Positions 38,870-55,288 of a stretch of 64,000 nucleotides of DNA are shown piece by piece. The DNA is taken from the NCBI RefSeq assembly GCF_000355695.1, contig NC_020891.1, forward strand, positions 434,001 through 498,000, in the 5' to 3' direction. The DNA comes from Clavibacter nebraskensis NCPPB 2581. GTDB lineage: Bacteria; Actinomycetota; Actinomycetes; Actinomycetales; Microbacteriaceae. The notes below the pieces were generated by a model. That model made no database searches. It had not been told where the DNA came from and was given only the letters and a program-made list of their open reading frames with translations. The position numbers and the translations under genes are program-made. How positions within the stretch are numbered: the stretch's first letter is position 1; the number at the start of each line of letters is the position of its first letter.

Positions 38870-39727
38870 GTGCGCGGTGGGGGGGCTCCGGGTGCGGCGG
38901 GCCTCGCGATGTTCCTGGTCGGCTGCGCGCCGTCCGCCGTGCCGGAGGACCAGCCCGGGTCGTCCAGCCCCTCCACGGTCGAGGTCACGACGAGGGACCT
39001 GGCACCGGTCATCTCGCTGACCGGATCCGTCACCGCGAGCGCGACGTTCTCGGTCCTGGCGCCGCGGAGCGGTGACGTGCAGTTCGCGTCCGGGGTGAAG
39101 GCGGGGGCGCGGGTCGCAGCCGGGGATCTCCTCGTGACGGTGGGAGGTGCCGAGGTGCGCACGCCCGTCGATGCGGTCGTCGGCGAGTCCCGCGCAGCGC
39201 CGGGGGCATCCGTGCCGAACCGCTATCCGGTCGCCTCCCTGTCCTACTCGGGCTTCGCGGTCGCGGGGGCCATCGACCCGGATCTCTCGTGGCTCCTGCT
39301 CTCGGCCCCCGTGACCGGCCGTGGGCAGATCTCCTCAGGCCCGGGGCCCTTCGACTGCGCCGCCGTCGTCACGTCCGCGAGCGCACCCGCGGGAGGGGCG
39401 GGTGACTCGATCGGATCATCCGGCGCCGCCGACCCGGCCAGCATGCTCTGCCTCGTCCCGAAGGAGGTGGACGCGGCCGTGGGGGCCCAGGCGATCACCG
39501 TCCTCACGGCCACGACCGTGCCCGCTGCCACGGTGCTCCCGCTGTCCGCGGTCGCCGGGCGCTCCGGCTCCGGGGAGGTGACGGTGCTCGAGGGGGACGA
39601 GCGCCGGCCGACCTCGGTGGCGCTCGGGTCGAGCGACGGGCAGTACATCCAGATCCTCTCCGGCGTGGTGCCGGGGCAGGTCGTGGATGCGACGGCGCCG
39701 AACCTGAGCGACAAGCGGGTCCCGTGA
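38870..39727 (+). CDS. MacA/HlyD-like adaptor lipoprotein (start region disturbed)
   Basis: 285 residues from GTG 38870: hydrophobic leader [11 protein letters not shown] (lipobox LVGC), then a periplasmic-adaptor-like barrel-sandwich domain ([19 protein letters not shown], ...[23 protein letters not shown]) and a beta-barrel end. It would link an ABC exporter to the envelope. GTG 38870 has no ribosome binding site. ATG 38848, which overlaps the previous stop, reads RARSRARW and then leaves frame at a seven-G run (38879-38885); deleting one G joins it perfectly to the lipoprotein signal. The native start is therefore probably 38848 with a +1 indel. Confidence 0.65.
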
Positions 39728-40431
39728 CGGAGGTCCTGGTCGCGCGGGGCCTCACGGTCGACGTCCATCTCACGCGGAAGCAGTCCCTGAGGACCGTCGA
39801 CGGGGTGGACCTCGTGGTCCTGGCCGGGGCAGCCCATGCCATCGTGGGGCGATCCGGGTCGGGGAAGACGAGCCTGCTCTCCGTCCTCGGCCTGCTCGAC
39901 GCGCGGTTCACGGGCGAGCTCCGCCTCGGCGGCACGGACGTCCGGAGCCTGTCGGACGCGGCACGAGCACGACTCCGCAACGAGGGGATCGGCTTCGTCT
40001 TCCAGTCGTACTCCCTCATGCCCCAGCACACCGCCCTCCAGAACGTGCTCCTGGCCACGGAGTACGGGCCCAGGTCGCGCCGCGGAGGAGCGAGGGCTCG
40101 CACCGACGCGTCCCGGCGGGCCCTCGACCAGGTGGGGTTGTCGGACAAGGCCGCCGCCTTCCCGCGGCAGCTCTCGGGCGGCGAGCAGCAGCGCGTCGCG
40201 ATCGCGCGTGCCCTCGTCAACGAACCCCAGCTGATCCTCGCCGACGAGCCCACCGGGGCGTTGGACGAGTCGACCGGCGAGCAGATCATGTCGCTCCTGA
40301 TCGATCGAGCTCGACGCGCGGGCTCCGCTCTGGTGATCGTGACGCATGATCCGCTCATCGCGGCGCGCTGCGAGCGACGCTTCTCGATGAGCGGCGGTCG
40401 CCTCGAGCAGGTGGCGGGGGAGATCCGATGA
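39724..40431 (+). CDS. MacB-type ABC transporter ATP-binding protein
   Basis: 235 residues, complete. Walker [10 protein letters not shown] (about 42-50), Q-loop [18 protein letters not shown], signature [15 protein letters not shown], Walker [14 protein letters not shown] and switch His in IVTHD. This is the LolD/MacB subgroup that partners FtsX-like permeases. GTG 39724 overlaps the adaptor stop; its own stop overlaps the permease start (ATGA). It is the only fully intact gene of the decayed export locus. Confidence 0.88.
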
Positions 40432-41607
40432 GGGCCGCCTGGAAGGACCTGCGGCTCAATCCCCTCCGGTCTTCGCTCACGGCGCTGAGCCTCTTCGTCG
40501 GGATCCTGTCGATCGTCGTGATCGTCGCCGGTGGGGCCGTCGCCCGTGACTACCTGCTCGCCGTCGCGGAGCAGCGGGACGGCCGGGCCCCCACCGAGGC
40601 GATCAGCGTCGGCGTCGAGCCGACGACGGACCCGAGCGGCGTCGCGCGCTTCATCGACCACCTCCCGCAGTCATCAGCGCGGGCGGTCTCGGCGCGCGTG
40701 GACCTGGCCTCACCGCTGGACGTGGCCCCGATCCCCTCCCCCGGGCAGCCGGTGTCACGCAGCGGCGTGCAGGCCGTGCTGGTCGCGGGCGACCTGCCGG
40801 GTGTCCGGCGTCTTTCTCTGGTGTCGGGGCGCTGGCTGTCAGCGGACGACGTGACGGCGCCCTTCGAGGTGGTCGTGAACGAGGAGGCGGCACGTGTCCT
40901 CGGCGTCGAGGGGTCGGGCGTCAGCCTGTCCGGCGCCCGGGACGGCGTCGCGTCGACGGGGCTCGTCGTCGGCGTCGTCAACGACGGGGAGGACTCGCAG
41001 GCGAACGCGTACGTGAAGGCCGCACCACTCCTCGCGCGCGCCTCAACTGGTCAGCGTCACGGGAGTCCAGCTCCTCTGGCACTCACCCGGTGACGCGGAA
41101 GCCGACATCGACTCGGCCGTGGCCGACATGGCGTCGGATGCGGGACTGGGCGCACCGGAGAGCGCACGTCGGGTCGACACGGTACGGACGTACCTGGAGC
41201 CCATAGCCGCCGTGCAGGCCATGTTCGGCGTCGCGGCAGCGCTCGCGCTCTTCGTCGCGGCGCTGGGGATCGTGAACGTCGGGCTCTCGAGCATCCGCGA
41301 GCGTGCGCGCGAGCTGGTGATCCGGCGGGCGATCGGCGCGACGCGCGGCCAGGTGTTCCGGCTCGTCATTTCGTCGTCCATCCTCCTCGCGGTCATCGTC
41401 GCCACCGCCAGCATCGCCGTGAGCGTCCTCCTCGTCGCCCTCGTGCCTCGGTTACTGCCACCGGACTCGCCCGTGACCGTCCCGGCGTATCCGCTGCCCG
41501 CGGCGGTCTGGGCTCTGGTCGTCTCGGTGCTCACGGCGGTGGTCAGCTCCGCGTTCCCCGCGTGGCGGGCCGCGCGCGTCGAGCCCGCGGTGGCTCTCCG
41601 CGAGTGA
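40428..41607 (+). pseudogene. FtsX/MacB-type ABC permease, frameshifted
   Basis: The first frame (40428-41093) encodes an N-terminal membrane helix ([20 protein letters not shown]) and most of the periplasmic MacB_PCD domain. The second frame, entering near 41035-41045 within CTCGCGCGCGCC, continues LVSVTGVQLLWHSPGDAEADIDSAVADMA, then the three C-terminal helices (FGVAAALALFVAALGIVNVG, VFRLVISSSILLAVIVATAS, ...) and ends VEPAVALRE, the normal end of FtsX permeases. Skipping one base, or restoring a lost dinucleotide, in the GC repeat rejoins them. Followed by a hairpin terminator. Confidence 0.8.
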
Positions 41608-42138: not shown

Positions 42139-42437
42139 CCATCTCCGGTCGCCGGTGATCGCGACCAGTCGGTCCGGATCACTGGCCTTCTCCCCGGCGC
42201 CGACGGCCCCCTTCCCGGTCCGCCGGACGCCGGCGTGGGTCCCGACGTCACGCGATCGAACCGCGACGGTGATGCCCGATGACCCCGCGGGTCGCCACGC
42301 CGGTCCGGTGAGCCTGGCCTGGCAGAGCCTGCCCGTCGTGGCTTCGGCGATGTGGAGAACTGCTCCTCGCGGGTCGGCAGGACACTAGCTTCAGCGCAGA
42401 GCGCGCATGCCATGCGTCGCCACAGCGAGGGATGAAG
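42139..42437 (+). promoter_or_regulatory. leader/promoter region of the RiPP-like operon
   Basis: 299 bases between tRNA-Ser(GCU) and the precursor gene with no convincing gene. TAGCTT at 42386-42391 is a candidate -10 box, which would give a short leader of about 40 bases. GAGGGATG (42427-42434) is the ribosome binding site of the precursor start at 42438. No clear operator palindrome is seen. Confidence 0.4.
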
Positions 42438-42704
42438 ATGTCAGCATTGGTCAGGTCAGAGCACGCATTCGAGTCGGATGTCGCCGAGCTGGAGGCGGCT
42501 CTCGCGCTGCCGTCCTTCTCGCCGGCCCTCCTCGACGAAGACGCGGAAGCGGCGGTCGAGGCGGATTGGGGCATCGTCGCGGCAGTCGCCGCTCTGCTCG
42601 GCCTCGCGATCGCGGTGGTCGCGTACATCTGCAGCGTCTGCGAAGCGAGGTCGTTCGACGCGTGTCGCGACGCGGTCGTGAACTACTTCGGCGGGGGCTG
42701 CTGA
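42438..42704 (+). CDS. candidate ribosomal peptide (RiPP-like) precursor
   Basis: 88 residues. Residues 1-43 are acidic and look like a leader (AELEAALALPSFSPALLDED). From about Trp44 the sequence is strongly hydrophobic (WGIVAAVAALLGLAIAVVAY), then carries four cysteines: 65, 68 (ICSVC), 76 (FDAC) and 88, the last residue of the C-terminal VNYFGGGC. It begins a seven-gene operon with a PqqD-like/M50 protease, ABC transporter and ICMT-family enzyme. ATG 42438 is preferred over ATG 42432 because GAGGG lies at proper distance. Four bases separate its stop from the protease start. No known precursor family is recognised. Confidence 0.7.
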   Translation: MSALVRSEHAFESDVAELEAALALPSFSPALLDEDAEAAVEADWGIVAAVAALLGLAIAVVAYICSVCEARSFDACRDAVVNYFGGGC

Positions 42705-42708
42705 CCCC

Positions 42709-43638
42709 GTGCGATACCGGGCAGTCCACGTCGACGCGGCGTTCGCGCTCGCGCCGGGTGTGACTGTGGAGACGGGGTGCGTGCGCGACGTCATGGGACG
42801 CGCGCACCCCGTCGACGGGTACGGGGAGCTCATCGCGAAGAACTGCCGTGTGGCTGTCGCCTCTCGAGAGCTCACCAGCGTCATGGCCGAGCTGTCCGGC
42901 ACCCCGGCGGAGCAGGTCGAGACGGCGTTGCTCCACTACGCGCAACAGCTCCACTCACGGAACCTCATCTCCGTCCACCAGTCGTTCCTCGTCGAGCTCT
43001 ACTGGGAGTTCGTCCTCTGGCCGACGGACCTCATGCTCCTCCTCGGGACCCGGAGGATGCCTCCACCGAGATTCTCCTCCCGTCGCATCTACCCATCGAC
43101 GGTCCTCCATCTCGCGCGAGCAGTGGTGGAGAGCTTCTCGTTCCTCACCGTCGCCTCCCTCTGCCTGACCTTCGTCGTCATCGCGGCGACGCTGATCCTC
43201 GATCCCCTCGTCCCGCGGCTGGACATCGAGCGCTCCGGGGTCCTGGCCCTCGTCGCGGCGAGTGCCACACTCCTCGTGCTGCTCGCCGCGTTCGTGCACG
43301 AGATGGGGCATCTCCTCGCCTGCCGTCTGCTCGGCATCCCCGTCCTCGGCATCCAGGCGCGGCGCGGCGCGACTTCCGTCCTCATGCCTCGCGCCAGAGG
43401 GCGGCAGCTGCGCGCGGCCGTCCTCGCGGGTCCCGCGGCCGGCGCGCTCTTCTGCATGGCGTCAGCTGCTGTGGCGTTGGGCATCCCCTCTCCGGGCTGG
43501 CAGTTCGCGACCATCGACAACGTGCGCCTGAGTCTGGGTCTGGTCTCACTCCTGATCGGGGTCGCTCAGCTCGTGAGCCTGCTGCCGCTGGCCGGGGACG
43601 GGCGTGCGCTCCGGGACCTCGGGCGGGAGCGCAGGTGA
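42709..43638 (+). CDS. PqqD-like domain fused to M50 (site-2 protease-type) membrane metalloprotease
   Basis: 309 residues. About 5-90 has the PqqD/RiPP-recognition-element pattern: beta-rich start (ALAPGVTVETG), DGYGELIAKN, then helices ELTSVMAELSGTPAEQVETA and LHYAQQLHSRNLIS. Membrane helices follow; AAFVHEMGHLLACRLLG supplies the zinc HExxH (197-201) and SLLPLAGDG the third ligand Asp (about 297), as in S2P/M50 intramembrane proteases. Its likely job is to bind the precursor leader and cleave within or near the membrane. GTG 42709 follows the precursor by four bases; its stop overlaps the ATPase start (GTGA). Confidence 0.8.
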   Translation: MRYRAVHVDAAFALAPGVTVETGCVRDVMGRAHPVDGYGELIAKNCRVAVASRELTSVMAELSGTPAEQVETALLHYAQQLHSRNLISVHQSFLVELYWEFVLWPTDLMLLLGTRRMPPPRFSSRRIYPSTVLHLARAVVESFSFLTVASLCLTFVVIAATLILDPLVPRLDIERSGVLALVAASATLLVLLAAFVHEMGHLLACRLLGIPVLGIQARRGATSVLMPRARGRQLRAAVLAGPAAGALFCMASAAVALGIPSPGWQFATIDNVRLSLGLVSLLIGVAQLVSLLPLAGDGRALRDLGRERR

Positions 43639-44375
43639 GCGTGTTGCGCGTCTCCGACCTCCAGGTGCGCTACCGGGGGTTCACGCTCGGCCCGGTGGAC
43701 CTCGTCCTCGAACGCGGTGACTTCGCCTCGTTGATCGGACCGAACGGGTCCGGCAAGAGCACTCTGATCCGGGCCGCGCTCGGGCTGGAACCCGGTATGG
43801 CCTCTGGGACGGTCGAGATCCTGGGTCAGCCGGCTCTCCGACGCCCGAGGCAGACGTTCTCGAGAGTGTCGTACGTCACCGATTCCCCACGCGACGTGCT
43901 CGCGGAGTTCACGGCGCGCGAATACTGGGACTACTGCCGAATCGCGTTCGAGTCGGCGCGCGGGGAACCCATCGAAGGGTGGGACGAGAGGGCGGACGTC
44001 TATGCCGCCATGCTGGACTTCCCGGCCGACCAACGGCGCCCCATCTCGGCCCTAAGCCTCGGGACGGCGAGGAAGGCGCAGATCATCGCCGCCCTGCTGC
44101 CCGCGCCCGACCTCGTGGTTCTCGACGAGCCGTTCATCGGCCTGGACTTCATCGCCTCCCGAGCCTTCGAAGCCCTTCTCCTCCAGCTCAAGCAGAGCCA
44201 GGTCTCCGTGCTCGCATCGAGCCACGACCTCGATCTCGCGGCACGGGTCGCAAATCGCATCCTCGTCCTCCGAGAGGGCCGGCTGCTCCTCGACGAGCAG
44301 GTCTCCGCGCTGACGGGAGGAGTCGAGGAGGCGGTGATCTGCGCGCTCGCGAGCGCCAGGACGGCGTCGAGCTGA
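43635..44375 (+). CDS. ABC transporter ATP-binding protein of the peptide operon
   Basis: 246 residues. Walker A GPNGSGKSTL (about 34-43) and Walker B LVVLDEPFIGLD are intact; the signature is degenerate (ALSLGTARKAQIIAAL rather than LSGGQ), as often in small peptide-immunity/export ATPases. Switch His is in SSHDLDLAARV. It resembles CcmA/YydI-like ATPases. GTG 43635 overlaps the protease stop by four bases; GTG 43641 is an alternative start. It works with the downstream permease to export or detoxify the peptide. Confidence 0.85.
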   Translation: MSVLRVSDLQVRYRGFTLGPVDLVLERGDFASLIGPNGSGKSTLIRAALGLEPGMASGTVEILGQPALRRPRQTFSRVSYVTDSPRDVLAEFTAREYWDYCRIAFESARGEPIEGWDERADVYAAMLDFPADQRRPISALSLGTARKAQIIAALLPAPDLVVLDEPFIGLDFIASRAFEALLLQLKQSQVSVLASSHDLDLAARVANRILVLREGRLLLDEQVSALTGGVEEAVICALASARTASS

Positions 44376-45826
44376 TGCGCGTGATATTCGGTCTCATCCC
44401 GGGCATGGGCGAGCTCGCCCTTCGACGCCTCACCCTGACGCAGAACGTGACGTGGCCCCGGTGGCGTCTCTACGCAGGTCTCGCGATCGCGGTCATCGCC
44501 ATGAGCACCACCGGAACGGTGCTCGCCTATGTCGACAGGCCGAGCGATCCGCTGGTGGCGTCGTTCTACCGGCCCGCGATCCTCGTGATCATGTCGATCC
44601 TCGCCGGGGCAGCGGTCATGGCGATGGAGGGGAGCCGTGATCGCTCCGGATCCACCGAGCGCGCACTGGGCGTCCTGCCCCTGCGTCGGCATGAGGCCGC
44701 GTCCCTCGTGCGTCTCCCCTCGCTCTGCGTGGCGGCCCTGGTCGTCCTCGTCCCGATCTGCCCGGCTGCGGCCGCGCTCGTCAGCATCGGCACTGGCCTC
44801 GAGGATGCGCTGCGCGCGATCCTCATCGCCTTCTGCGCGGGGATGGTCACGGTCGCCGTGCCCTACCTCGGCGTGTCCTTCCTCATGCGATCGCGAACAT
44901 GGGACTCGGTGAGGGTGCCCACCGCTCTCGTCCTCTGGGGCGTCGTCTACGTGTGGCAGGTGGGGGTGGCGTTCCGCTCGTTGGCGGGCACCGGGATCCC
45001 CGCCTACCTCCCGCTCGCGAGCGCGCTGACGGACGCTCTGCACGGCACCACGTCGGTACCCGCGGCCCGAGCGATATGCGTCACGGCTCTCGTCAGCCTC
45101 GTGGCCGTGGCCGTCGAGTTCTCCGTGTCCGGACGCCGAGGCCGGGCTCCCGCCGTCCTCCTCCGCTGGCATGGCCATGGCGCGGCCGGGCGCGCCCTCG
45201 GGGAGTTCCGGTACGCACTCCGCGATCCGGCCCTGCGGGCCAACGTCGCGCTCGGGATGCTCATGGCGTCCGTCGTCGTCGCCGGGTTCCTCCAGCTGCC
45301 GAGCGCGCTCCGTGCTCAGAGCGAATCCCTCGTGCTGCTGGTCGTCGGCGTGTTCGCCGTGTCCGTCTCCCGTTCAGTCCGGGGCATCTACCCCGCGTCG
45401 GTTCCTGTGCAACGGCTTCTCAACATCACGGCGACATCCTGGGCTTCATCGACCGCATCGGTCGTCGCTGCGATGGTCGCGCTGATGTTCCTGCCGTGTG
45501 TCGCGTTGACCTGGGATGCGACGGACGTCGGCGGTGTGACGCTGCTCCTGGTCGGCGCGTGGGCGCTCGCCGCCGCCCTGGCGGTAGGGGTGGGGGCGAT
45601 CCTCCCGGTCGGTGCGCGCAACGTCCTCGGACACGGGGTGGCCGGCGGGCTCTCCATAGGGGGCTACATCACCGCGTTCCTGTCAATGCAACAGGCTGCA
45701 GGCGGCATGACCGGCGCGTTCGCGGGGGCTGCGGTCGCCCTGCTCGTGGTCGCGATCCTCGTCGCGGTCCTATCCGAGAACTTCCGATGGCGACCGCGGT
45801 CGCCGCGCCGAGGAGGCATTGCATGA
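44375..45826 (+). CDS. ABC-type multi-pass permease
   Basis: 483 residues with about 10-12 predicted membrane helices (for example WRLYAGLAIAVIAMSTTGTV, ILVIMSILAGAAVMAM, VVAAMVALMFLPCVAL, VAGGLSIGGYITAFL). It has no ATPase or protease motif and fits a type-2-like ABC export permease paired with the preceding ATPase, comparable in position to YydJ-type proteins. The ATG overlaps the ATPase stop by one base; its stop overlaps the next start (ATGA). Confidence 0.75.
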   Translation: MRVIFGLIPGMGELALRRLTLTQNVTWPRWRLYAGLAIAVIAMSTTGTVLAYVDRPSDPLVASFYRPAILVIMSILAGAAVMAMEGSRDRSGSTERALGVLPLRRHEAASLVRLPSLCVAALVVLVPICPAAAALVSIGTGLEDALRAILIAFCAGMVTVAVPYLGVSFLMRSRTWDSVRVPTALVLWGVVYVWQVGVAFRSLAGTGIPAYLPLASALTDALHGTTSVPAARAICVTALVSLVAVAVEFSVSGRRGRAPAVLLRWHGHGAAGRALGEFRYALRDPALRANVALGMLMASVVVAGFLQLPSALRAQSESLVLLVVGVFAVSVSRSVRGIYPASVPVQRLLNITATSWASSTASVVAAMVALMFLPCVALTWDATDVGGVTLLLVGAWALAAALAVGVGAILPVGARNVLGHGVAGGLSIGGYITAFLSMQQAAGGMTGAFAGAAVALLVVAILVAVLSENFRWRPRSPRRGGIA

Positions 45827-46134
45827 GCACGTCCACGACCCGCATCCACCGCACCATGATCTGGCCGGGCATCGCGTCCGCCCTGCTCTGGCTCCTAGGA
45901 CTCCTCATCGCGGGGGTGAGCTTCGTCAGCGTCTCCGGCGCCGCCCGCGCCGCGTCCGACGGGACGTCGCTGCCGAGCGGCTTCCTGGGGCTCCCGCTCT
46001 TCGAGGGATTCCATGCCCATGGGCGTTTCGGCGTCCACCCGCAGTGGGGGCTCCTCGTGCTGCTGATCGTGCCCGCGGTGGTCGGCATCGCCCTGTCCCT
46101 CGTCGCGCTCCGGCGCCTGCGTGAGCATGACTGA
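45823..46134 (+). CDS. small two-helix membrane protein of the peptide operon
   Basis: 103 residues. Helix 1 (MIWPGIASALLWLLGLLIAGV) follows a short N-terminus; a ~45-residue probably extracytoplasmic loop contains FEGFHAHGRFGVHPQWG with three His; helix 2 is LLVLLIVPAVVGIALSLVAL; the tail ends RRLREHD. No family recognised. The His-rich loop might bind metal or haem, which is speculative. It overlaps both neighbours, so it clearly belongs to the operon. Immunity or assembly factor is possible. Confidence 0.65.
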   Translation: MSTSTTRIHRTMIWPGIASALLWLLGLLIAGVSFVSVSGAARAASDGTSLPSGFLGLPLFEGFHAHGRFGVHPQWGLLVLLIVPAVVGIALSLVALRRLREHD

Positions 46135-46681
46135 CGCGATCATGCTCGCGGTGCTCCTGTCGCTGGCCGGAGCCACGGAGATCGTCTTCGCCGGGCGGGG
46201 GAACGGCGCAGCATCTCCGCGTGGTGTCGCGACCGACCGCCTCATGCAGATCATGACGGTCCTCGCCATCGCCGGGCCACCGCTCACCTCGCTCGTATTC
46301 GCCCGGGCCCCATCAGTCGTGGCCGTGGGTGCGGGATGCGCTCTGGCCACCGGCGGCCTCGTCCTCCGGGTCGCCGCGATGCGCGCGCTCGGCAGCCGCT
46401 TCCAACTCACCCCGCGCCCGGTCGCGGAGTCACCCGCACTCGTCGTGGCGGGTCTCTACCACGTCGTCAGGCACCCCGGGTACACCGCGCTGCTGATGTT
46501 CTTCGCCGGAACGTCCCTGGTCGGCGGCGGTCTCGCCGGGCTGGCCTTCGTCGCGCCCTTGGTGGCGGGAGTGCTGGTGCGCATCCGCGTCGAGGAAGCC
46601 ATCCTCCGCCAGGAGTTCGGCCCCACCCACGTGGCCTATGTGGAGGACGTGAGATGGCTGCTCGTTCCGATGGTCCGATGA
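46127..46681 (+). CDS. isoprenylcysteine carboxyl methyltransferase (ICMT) family membrane protein
   Basis: 184 residues with four to five membrane helices. The C-terminal ICMT/PEMT signature is complete: LVVAGLYHVVRHPGYTALLM (RHPxY AdoMet site, about 115-119) and RVEEAILRQEFGPTHVAYVEDVRWLLVP (EE pair at 156-157). Eukaryotic Ste14 methylates the C-terminal carboxylate of prenylated cysteine; bacterial members have mostly unknown or thiol substrates. In this operon the precursor ends in cysteine, which makes it an obvious candidate substrate. ATG 46127 overlaps the previous gene by eight bases; GTG 46121 is also possible. Confidence 0.82.
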   Translation: MTDAIMLAVLLSLAGATEIVFAGRGNGAASPRGVATDRLMQIMTVLAIAGPPLTSLVFARAPSVVAVGAGCALATGGLVLRVAAMRALGSRFQLTPRPVAESPALVVAGLYHVVRHPGYTALLMFFAGTSLVGGGLAGLAFVAPLVAGVLVRIRVEEAILRQEFGPTHVAYVEDVRWLLVPMVR

Positions 46682-46866
46682 CGCACCAGGATCGTGTGCC
46701 CGGTCCGGATCCGCGGGTCGCCCATGCCGCCTCGCTCCTGGGACGTGGACGGGATGAGGCGAGGCGCCGCATGCGCGTGCGCCTCCGGTGGGAGCTCCTC
46801 GCCGTTGCGGGAGTCATCCTCCTCACCGTGACAGGATTGGCGGCCTACGTGGAGACCATCTCCTGA
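46678..46866 (+). CDS. small single-helix membrane protein, last gene of the peptide operon
   Basis: 62 residues. A basic cytoplasmic N-terminus with RVAHAASLLGRGRDEARRRMR precedes one membrane helix (LLAVAGVILLTVTGLAAYV) and a short external end. No family recognised. The ATG overlaps the ICMT stop (ATGA). Small basic single-helix proteins at the end of bacteriocin operons are sometimes immunity proteins; this is inference only. Confidence 0.6.
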   Translation: MTHQDRVPGPDPRVAHAASLLGRGRDEARRRMRVRLRWELLAVAGVILLTVTGLAAYVETIS

Positions 46867-46948
46867 GCCACGACGCCGCGCGCGTCACGCCGGGATCAGG
46901 GAACGAGGACCGCGGTCGTCGGCCTGAGGTACGCCTAGCATCGCCCTC

Positions 46949-48019
46949 ATGAGCGACACGTTTCCCGAGGCACCGCGGACGCCGGATCCCGAGCACGGCT
47001 CCGGCACGACCCTCGGCCTCATCGCGCGCGAGGCGAACGTGTCGATCGGCACGGTCAGCAAGGTCCTCAACGGGCGCAAGGGCATCTCGCCCGCGACCCG
47101 CGCGCGCGTCGAGGAGCTGATGGAGCTGCACGGCTACAGCAGGCGCGGCGCCGAGCGGCCGCACGGTGCGCTCATCGAGATCGTGCTGGAGGTGGTGGAC
47201 ACGGGCTTCTCCGTCGACCTGCTGCGCGGCGTCTCTGCGGTCGCGCGCGAGCACGGCCTGAGCGTCATCGTCACGGAGCACGGGCGCGACACCGCGCTCG
47301 ACGGCGACTGGATGGCGGGCGTCATGCAGCGCCGGCCGATGGGCCTCGTGCTCGTGTTCTCCGACCTCGCGCCCGCGCAGAAGCGGCAGCTGCGCAGTCG
47401 CGGGATCCCGTTCGTGGTGGTGGATCCCGCGGGGTCGCCGGCCGCGGACGTGCCGGCCGTCGGATCCACCAACTGGGAGGGCGGGCACGCCGCGGGGGAG
47501 CACCTGCTGGGACTCGGGCACGTGCGCATCGGCGCCATCAGCGGGCCGACGGACCGGCTCTACTCCCGAGCGCGGATATCGGGGTTCCGCAGCGCGCTCG
47601 AGGCGGCCGGGCCCGGGGTGTCGCTCGTCGAGGCGGAGGGCGACTTCGGTCGCGCCGCCGGGTTCCGGGCAGGCGGCGAACTGCTCGACCGCGCGGAGCG
47701 ACCGACCGCGATCTTCGCGGGCAACGACGAGCAGGCGGTCGGGCTCTACGAGGCCGCGCGCGAGCGGGGGATCCGCATCCCCGACGACCTCTCCGTGCTC
47801 GGCTACGACGATCTCCCGTTCGCCCGCATCGTCTCGCCCGCGCTGAGCACCGTGCGGCAGCCCGTGCGCGAGATGGCCGAGGCGGCGGCGCGCATGGTGC
47901 TGCGGATCCGCGAGGGCCGGAGCGAGGAGCCGACGCGGCTCGACCTCGCGACCGCGCTGGTGGTCCGCGCCAGTACGGCGGCGCCCGCGGCGACGGACGC
48001 GGTGTCGCCGCCTGAGTGA
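46949..48019 (+). CDS. LacI family transcriptional regulator
   Basis: 356 residues. N-terminal LacI helix-turn-helix with hinge (GLIAREANVSIGTVSKVLNGRKGISPATRARV, about 23-54). Periplasmic-binding-protein-like ligand core with RRPMGLVLVFSD, GLGHVRIGAISGP and DDLSVLGYDDLPFARIVSPALSTVRQP. It probably senses a sugar or sugar-like ligand and controls the adjacent ThuA-oxidoreductase genes through GAAACGTTTC at 48018-48027. Start: TAGCAT 46936-46941, 7 bases before ATG 46949. Confidence 0.88.
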   Translation: MSDTFPEAPRTPDPEHGSGTTLGLIAREANVSIGTVSKVLNGRKGISPATRARVEELMELHGYSRRGAERPHGALIEIVLEVVDTGFSVDLLRGVSAVAREHGLSVIVTEHGRDTALDGDWMAGVMQRRPMGLVLVFSDLAPAQKRQLRSRGIPFVVVDPAGSPAADVPAVGSTNWEGGHAAGEHLLGLGHVRIGAISGPTDRLYSRARISGFRSALEAAGPGVSLVEAEGDFGRAAGFRAGGELLDRAERPTAIFAGNDEQAVGLYEAARERGIRIPDDLSVLGYDDLPFARIVSPALSTVRQPVREMAEAAARMVLRIREGRSEEPTRLDLATALVVRASTAAPAATDAVSPPE

Positions 48020-53949: not shown

Positions 53950-54093
53950 CAGTCGATCTCTCTCATGCGTCGCACAGTATCACGCAGTGCGCGGTACCTC
54001 GGAGTGCCGCGCATGGCGGCGCGTCCCGTCGATGACGGCGGGTGGCGGTCACCGGCCCTCGTGCGCGCCGTAGGTGCGGTGCTACCGTCGGGC

Positions 54094-54414
54094 ATGCCCA
54101 TCGTCCTGGAGGCCCTCGGCCGCGCGCTCGCCCTCCTCGGCGACGTCGTGCTGGGCGGCGCGGGCGTCTCGCCGGCGATCCTCCTCGCGGCCCTCCTCGG
54201 CGCCGCGTCCGTGGCCGCCGCGGTCGCGCTCGTGCGCATCGCCGCGGCGCGCGGGCTCCTCGGACGCGTCGCGCCTCCGTCCCTCCCGGACGAGGACGTC
54301 GACCTCCCGGTGCTCGTCTCCTCGAGCGACCCGGACGCCGACGGGCACGAGCGCTCGCGCGCACCGGGCCGCCGGATGCAGGTCGTCGTGCCTGCGCCGC
54401 TCCCGGCCGCCTGA
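54094..54414 (+). CDS. small membrane protein (DUF6412-like)
   Basis: 106 residues. Two hydrophobic segments (LEALGRALALLGDVVLGGAG and AILLAALLGAASVAAAVALV) precede an Arg/Asp/Pro-rich cytoplasmic tail containing SSSDPDADGHERSRAPGRR. That arrangement and its place directly before a YidC paralogue match the DUF6412 proteins of actinobacteria (recognised by context, moderate certainty). Start: TACCGT 54083-54088, ATG 54094. Possibly a YidC accessory factor. Confidence 0.6.
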   Translation: MPIVLEALGRALALLGDVVLGGAGVSPAILLAALLGAASVAAAVALVRIAAARGLLGRVAPPSLPDEDVDLPVLVSSSDPDADGHERSRAPGRRMQVVVPAPLPAA

Positions 54415-54520
54415 CCGCGGCCAGCAGGGGTCCACCGCCGCCATCGCGCGGCACGGATCCGGCGCGCGCCCGCATGCGACGACCAGTCGGACCGCATCCG
54501 CTCTCGTCGCAAGGAACTCC

Positions 54521-55288
54521 GTGGACCCCACATCGATCGCCCCCGTCCGAACCGTGCTCGACGGCCTGTCCCAGCTCGTCGTCGGCCTCGCCGACCTGAT
54601 CCACCCGCTCGCCGGCGCCTCCGCGACCGGCGTGGCCGTCATCCTCCTGACCCTCGGGGTGCGCGCCCTGCTCGTGCCGGTCGGCGTGGCGCAGGTGCGC
54701 GCCGAGATCCAGCGCCGCCGGATCGCGCCCGCGCTTGCCGAGCTCCGTCGCCGCCACGCGGGCAAGCCCGAGCAGCTGTCGCGGGCGATGCAGGAGCTGT
54801 ACGCCCGCGAGGGCGCGTCGCCGCTCGCCGGCTGCCTGCCGACGCTCGCGCAGGCGCCCGTGCTCGCGGCCGTCTACGCCCTCTTCGCGCACGCGCGGAT
54901 CGGCGGGGAGGCGAACGCGCTGCTCGCCGCGCCCTTCGCCGGGATCCCGCTCGGCACGAGCGCGCTCGCCTCGACGGGGCTGGGCGTCACGCCGCTCGTC
55001 GTCGCGGTCGTCGTGCTCGGGCTGCTCGCCGTGGTGATCGAGGTCCGCCGCCGCGCCGACCTGCGCTTCCAGGGGCCGCCCGCACCCGTCGATCCGGCGC
55101 TGCCCGGCACGGCCGGCATGACCACGATGATGCGGGTGCTGCCGTTCGTCACGGTCGTCTTCGCGGGCGTAGCCCCGCTCGCCGCGGCCCTGTACCTGCT
55201 GTCCAGCGCCGCGTGGACGCTCGTCGAGCGCGCGGCGCTGCGGCGGCTCCTCGGCCGCGCGCCCTCGCGGGGGACGGCGCCCGCGTGA
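54521..55288 (+). CDS. YidC/Oxa1-family membrane insertase paralogue
   Basis: 255 residues, shorter than the main YidC of actinobacteria. Five membrane segments. The basic cytoplasmic hairpin ALLVPVGVAQVRAEIQRRRIAPALAELRRRH carries the conserved Arg of the hydrophilic groove, followed by LSRAMQELYAREGASPLAGCLPTLAQAPVLAAVY, the classic YidC signature. No N-terminal periplasmic domain. GTG 54521 has AAGGA five bases upstream. It is probably a specialised second insertase; the main copy should sit next to rnpA/rpmH elsewhere. Confidence 0.85.
   Translation: MDPTSIAPVRTVLDGLSQLVVGLADLIHPLAGASATGVAVILLTLGVRALLVPVGVAQVRAEIQRRRIAPALAELRRRHAGKPEQLSRAMQELYAREGASPLAGCLPTLAQAPVLAAVYALFAHARIGGEANALLAAPFAGIPLGTSALASTGLGVTPLVVAVVVLGLLAVVIEVRRRADLRFQGPPAPVDPALPGTAGMTTMMRVLPFVTVVFAGVAPLAAALYLLSSAAWTLVERAALRRLLGRAPSRGTAPA

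Follow-up and report, generated by a model that had tools for sequence, protein, structure and literature searches.

Seven tightly packed and overlapping genes, all on the + strand, occupy positions 42438-46866 of a 64,000-nucleotide stretch of the Clavibacter nebraskensis NCPPB 2581 genome (contig NC_020891.1, positions 434,001 to 498,000; hereafter the window). This operon is real, conserved and rare, and in the best reading it represents a rare daptide-like system whose product would be a helical, probably disulfide-bonded membrane peptide. It probably encodes a bacteriocin system resembling those of ribosomally synthesized and post-translationally modified peptides (RiPPs), built on the daptide plan and acting by the mechanism set out below. 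Moderate confidence is placed in this interpretation, which is supported by the synteny of all seven genes, a conserved peptide core combined with a variable leader, and the predicted RiPP recognition element (RRE) and site-2 protease folds of the processing enzyme. The initial annotation, made from the sequence alone, had proposed a system of precursor, leader-binding protease and transporter, and this proposal is well supported. Taken as a whole the annotation is partly supported, its antimicrobial or signalling peptide with a modified C-terminus being still a proposal.

Operon organization and the precursor peptide

The first gene (42438-42704) encodes an 88-residue precursor peptide with a variable N-terminal leader, a hydrophobic helix and a Cys tail. 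It is followed by genes for a 309-residue RRE-site-2 protease fusion (42709-43638), a 246-residue ABC transporter ATPase (43635-44375; Pfam ABC_tran 68.7 bits, cut-off 25) and a 483-residue ABC permease with 11 hydrophobic segments (44375-45826). The remaining genes encode a two-helix membrane protein, smA (45823-46134), a candidate immunity protein with homologues that include orphan copies; a 186-residue membrane methyltransferase of the ICMT/PEMT superfamily (46121-46681), a candidate C-terminal Cys carboxyl methyltransferase; and a 70-residue one-helix membrane protein, smB (46654-46866). All seven genes recur in the same order, with smB in the matching place, at a locus of a different genus within the family (L008, genome G042), where protein identity ranges from 27% to 52% (protease 28%, ATPase 52%, permease 32-33%, smA 38%, methyltransferase 43%, smB 27%). 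The overlapping arrangement claimed initially is therefore confirmed and, given its recurrence, not due to chance. Since the scanned neighbours differ between the window and L008, the seven genes occur as a block in different surroundings. In database comparisons, the precursor, permease, smA and smB fell below the cut-off of every Pfam family, five proteins of the operon had no match in PHROGs, and the ATPase was the only one of the seven to match PADLOC, its 14 entries being read as general ATPase similarity.

The precursor start was placed at the second ATG (42438), two codons after the start given in the list of open reading frames (ORFs; 42432), because of the GAGG spacing and because Met-Ser is then the start of all three precursors considered (window, L008 and the partial locus L014 described below). 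The strongest hydrophobic stretch covers residues 46-64 and is followed by a 24-residue tail carrying Cys65, 68, 76 and 88 and ending in -GGC. The window and L008 precursors are 49% identical (BLASTP E 1e-10 in one single comparison), with 27 identical residues among the last 41; each has four identically spaced Cys (3, 8, 12) and a terminal -GGC. Over these last 41 codons, the first, second and third positions differ 13, 12 and 21 times, respectively, and the codons differ at 13 of the 27 residues that are identical, which argues that selection acts on the peptide itself. The hydrophobic, Cys-rich core described in the initial annotation is thus borne out, being conserved between genera. Its acidic leader, by comparison, applies to the window (net charge -10) and not as a general trait: leaders vary in length and charge, and that of L008 is +1. 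By eye, the window leader (42438-42530) contains ELEAALALP, a partial match to the daptide leader motif ELExMEAP, which was not noticed in the L008 and L014 leaders.

A predicted structural model of the precursor, built from three sequences, has a mean predicted local distance difference test score (pLDDT) of 71, rising to 88-95 per block over residues 51-88, and comprises a long helix (residues 32-67), a turn and a second helix (residues 73-83). No match to this model was found in the PDB, a result that excludes nothing. Among the 125 window ORFs of 60-130 residues, the precursor included, four end in Cys and three contain at least four Cys in their last 30 residues. On these counts the Cys pattern by itself would be weak evidence, and it is conservation that carries the case.

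The protease fusion and its relation to known peptide systems

By predicted model and fold matches, the protease comprises an RRE at about residues 10-92 and a site-2 protease domain at about residues 123-309. The best fold matches of its N-terminal part are RREs and PqqD, consistent with a winged-helix leader-binding domain. The C-terminal part shows the features of site-2 (M50) proteases, namely HExxH and a second Asp-Gly motif in a membrane protein of matching fold; HEMGH lies at residue 197 and DGR at residue 297, and HExGH and DGR motifs are present in all four proteases compared (window and three relatives). The protein is accordingly taken, by predicted fold, as an RRE fused to a site-2 protease, in agreement with the leader-binding and intramembrane protease fusion first suggested. 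The accompanying label "PqqD-like" holds for the fold and not for Pfam, where no PqqD match was obtained for the window protease at E <= 1 or for its three relatives at E <= 10. The Pfam M50 models also stayed below cut-off (M50B 19.9 vs 26 bits; M50 15.8 vs 27.2 bits).

Site-2 proteases usually cut membrane regulators, and an 88-residue protein with one strong hydrophobic helix could be such a target, so that the operon would serve regulated intramembrane proteolysis in a stress or transport module. This explanation is considered very improbable: an RRE-type fold occupies the N-terminus of the protease, conservation in the small protein falls on its helix and Cys tail rather than on its N-terminal part, and the operon forms a rare accessory island.

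The bacteriocin interpretation gains its closest parallel from daptides, the products of the mpa cluster of Microbacterium paraoxydans. According to the daptide paper (PMC10036551), the leader of these helical, hemolytic peptides is removed by the intramembrane peptidase MpaP in an RRE-dependent manner. The same N-terminal fusion of an RRE to an intramembrane site-2 protease appears, by predicted fold, in the operon, and both systems have a hydrophobic, predicted helical core with a conserved C-terminal residue, an ABC transporter, an S-adenosylmethionine (SAM)-dependent methyltransferase and an actinobacterial host. However, the daptide C-terminus is an invariant Thr, whereas the operon peptides end in -GGC (window, L008) or -CK (L014), and the operon is distinguished by four conserved Cys, a membrane methyltransferase of ICMT/PEMT type, a single precursor and two small membrane proteins. 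The daptide alcohol dehydrogenase (PF00465) and aminotransferase had no Pfam match in the seven genes and three neighbours, 14 more window ORFs or six L008 neighbours. The operon is closest to daptides by its protease, yet it departs from them in the C-terminal residue, dehydrogenase and aminotransferase.

Resemblance to yydHIJ of Bacillus had been pointed out earlier, and it stands insofar as the epipeptide system epeXEPAB (yydFGHIJ) of Bacillus subtilis shares the set of precursor, membrane M50 peptidase, ABC ATPase and permease, with EpeAB giving autoimmunity (PMC12871923, PMC10885120). By comparison, the operon lacks a radical SAM epimerase, has a four-Cys precursor and adds an ICMT/PEMT-type gene. 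The absence of a radical SAM enzyme, remarked on from the start, was verified among the seven window genes and the same-order L008 set. Daptides, which the initial annotation did not name, are nevertheless the closer comparison. In pearlin pathways, a membrane M50 protease likewise acts on a peptide, as is proposed here, although TglG and TmoG free a modified amino acid from the C-terminus of a scaffold peptide (PMC10885120). The remaining enzymes of those pathways are not among the seven genes. An open-licence literature search for an RRE together with a site-2 protease returned the daptide paper alone (PMC10036551). As a whole, the operon fits no described peptide class found in the open-licence literature; the earlier statement to this effect holds for the complete gene set and has to be relaxed for the protease fusion, which is already known from daptides (PMC10036551).

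The methyltransferase and the proposed mechanism

Membership of the methyltransferase in the ICMT/PEMT superfamily is indicated by Pfam scores over both cut-offs (PEMT 49.0 bits, cut-off 25; ICMT 35.0 bits, cut-off 24) and by its RHPGY and RxEE motifs. It differs from described members in being encoded within a peptide operon and in scoring 43.5 bits against the NCBIfam equivalog for protein-S-isoprenylcysteine O-methyltransferase, far short of the 160 required. Its initial assignment to the ICMT family is therefore upheld at the superfamily level, with PEMT as good a fit.

Methylation of the terminal Cys of the precursor is plausible. A daptide follow-up paper (PMC12670281) names HRas, whose terminal Cys bears a methyl ester, as an example of charge masking. 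The methyltransferase is nevertheless the weakest link of the proposal: the enzyme scores as high against PEMT as against ICMT, and a much weaker match to it is present elsewhere in its own genome, as it is in 12 of the 17 congeneric species examined. Among the proteins scanned, no prenyltransferase partner was seen. In the open-licence literature, isoprenylcysteine combined with RiPP precursor peptide led only to papers on Trp prenylation, and isoprenylcysteine methyltransferase combined with bacteriocin gene cluster only to genome papers.

The same peptide system might instead employ a methyltransferase that acts on a membrane lipid, as PEMT does, or on a Cys thiol, serving self-protection or a modification away from the C-terminus. 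The higher PEMT score of the window enzyme speaks for this, as does the inclusion in the superfamily of methanethiol S-methyltransferase, a weak match. On the other hand, for the L008 homologue the ICMT score is slightly above that for PEMT (47.6 vs 45.3 bits), three of the four solved sequences matched by the methyltransferase profile are ICMTs (the best match being the fourth, AtTam46), and both loci that carry the gene, window and L008, encode a peptide ending in Cys. Taken together, this alternative is regarded as somewhat unlikely.

In the favoured mechanism of a daptide-like bacteriocin, the RRE of the membrane protease would bind the precursor leader, and the site-2 protease domain would cleave inside the hydrophobic helix or immediately ahead of it, so that about 26-45 C-terminal residues are left as the peptide. 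This peptide would contain the hydrophobic helix, in whole or in part, and the four-Cys tail; the longer form is favoured because the last 41 residues are conserved. After export, the four Cys would probably form two disulfides. The ICMT-type enzyme may cap the carboxylate of the C-terminal Cys as a methyl ester and so remove its negative charge, the least certain step; such capping would parallel that of daptides, which use another chemistry at their C-terminal Thr. The ABC transporter would export the peptide or clear it from the membrane of the producer, with smA adding immunity, and the peptide would most likely act on the cytoplasmic membrane of related bacteria.

A more specific version is offered only tentatively, in which the products are disulfide-bonded helical bacteriocins that form a new class of RiPPs following the daptide plan, with a C-terminal Cys carboxyl-methylated by an ICMT relative and possibly a lipid on its thiol. 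If true, it would constitute a bacterial counterpart of eukaryotic CaaX proteins with their methylated Cys terminus and could provide a peptide substrate for a bacterial ICMT relative, and the RRE-site-2 protease module would be common to peptide systems of differing C-terminal chemistry. With only seven genes, the system would allow C-terminal capping, intramembrane leader removal and immunity to be tested gene by gene.

Genomic island, smA and distribution

The operon lies in an island of 4,791 bp (42142-46932; GC 0.700 vs 0.736 for the window) between tRNA-Ser(GCT), which ends at 42141, and a LacI-type regulator gene, which begins at 46949. It is absent from this interval in all 17 other species of the genus that were examined, where the gap measures 105-1,748 bp (15 species from the first loci, two from longer stretches). 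Up to position 47400, no stretch of 10 or more bases repeats any part of the tRNA's final 61 bases. The interval itself is variable across the genus (L031-L049). It spans 105-195 bp in four species and 659-692 bp in nine; within the latter group, L031 holds a 202-residue ORF and seven of the eight others resemble its gap in DNA. ORFs named by eye as transposase-like and decarboxylase-like occur in L048 and L049, respectively.

At the same chromosomal site, smA homologues occur without the other six genes, intact in genome G403 (L046, 1082-1411) and broken in genome G034 (L041). Orphan immunity genes left behind are familiar at bacteriocin loci, and smA is proposed as a candidate immunity protein because it is kept alone in the same manner. 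Alternatively, the orphan copies may be chance remnants. Turnover of a bacteriocin and its immunity gene is consistent with both the island position and the orphan smA.

A signalling role for the peptide, as a pheromone, was also weighed. Pheromone processing is another task of M50 proteases, the peptide is small and derives from the membrane, and regulators lie nearby: the LacI-type gene follows the operon in the window, and an ORF named ArsR-like by eye lies beyond it in L008. Nevertheless, the two loci are flanked by different regulators, and lacI also occurs, without the operon, in all 17 sister species examined. The seven shared genes include no receptor, kinase or regulator, and one sister species retains an immunity-like gene on its own. 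A pheromone is thus improbable, and an antimicrobial function remains preferred.

Beyond L008, an order-wide search with a protease profile yielded two partial loci in another family, with ATPases named by eye. L014 (genome G628) encodes a 68-residue peptide and then, running to the end of the contig, a protease, an ATPase and a permease; L015 (genome G575), cut at both contig ends, encodes protease, ATPase, permease and an smA-like protein (83-373; 23% identity to the window smA), which suggests that smA belongs to the wider system. Both contigs end short of the methyltransferase position. These two gene orders support the daptide plan. The L014 peptide combines a single hydrophobic helix with four Cys (spacing 4, 7, 12) and a -CK terminus, and it aligns only weakly with the window precursor (E 0.019); its kinship is judged from gene order and Cys spacing. 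Conservation of the precursor beside the protease, on which the initial annotation had staked its proposal, is thus strong in G042 and weak in G628.

Counting own and known loci, the protease matched in 1 of 18 genomes of the genus, 2 of 398 of the family, 4 of 396 of the order and 11 of 394 of the class, as well as in 1 of 6 genomes of the genus of G042, 1 of 377 relatives of G042 and 2 of 18 genomes of the family of G628. These samples overlap, and few candidates were scored per genome in most searches, making the operon count a lower bound. A precursor profile matched 1 of 345 class genomes, its own. Of the protease matches in the class, the ten outside the window's own genome (E 4e-9 to 9e-7) involved the protease part only and were taken as ordinary M50 proteins; a further order-wide match (G581) showed no such operon in the portion of its ORF list that was inspected. 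No additional operon emerged from these searches. A contig scan with the protease gave one locus, an M50-type ORF in a Clostridia metagenome-assembled genome whose ORF list lacks the operon. Plasmids yielded no match for the precursor (E <= 1), protease (E <= 0.01), ATPase (E <= 1e-20) or methyltransferase (E <= 1e-10), and none of the 130 stretches of viral contigs fitting the protease patterns encodes a relative.

Two further features of the window were recorded. A MacB-type ABC exporter lies just before the tRNA (39724-41607); its permease is split over two ORFs in different frames (MacB_PCD, 40428-41093; FtsX, 41119-41607) and is possibly interrupted. A 404-residue protein of the YidC/60KD_IMP family is encoded at 54074-55288.
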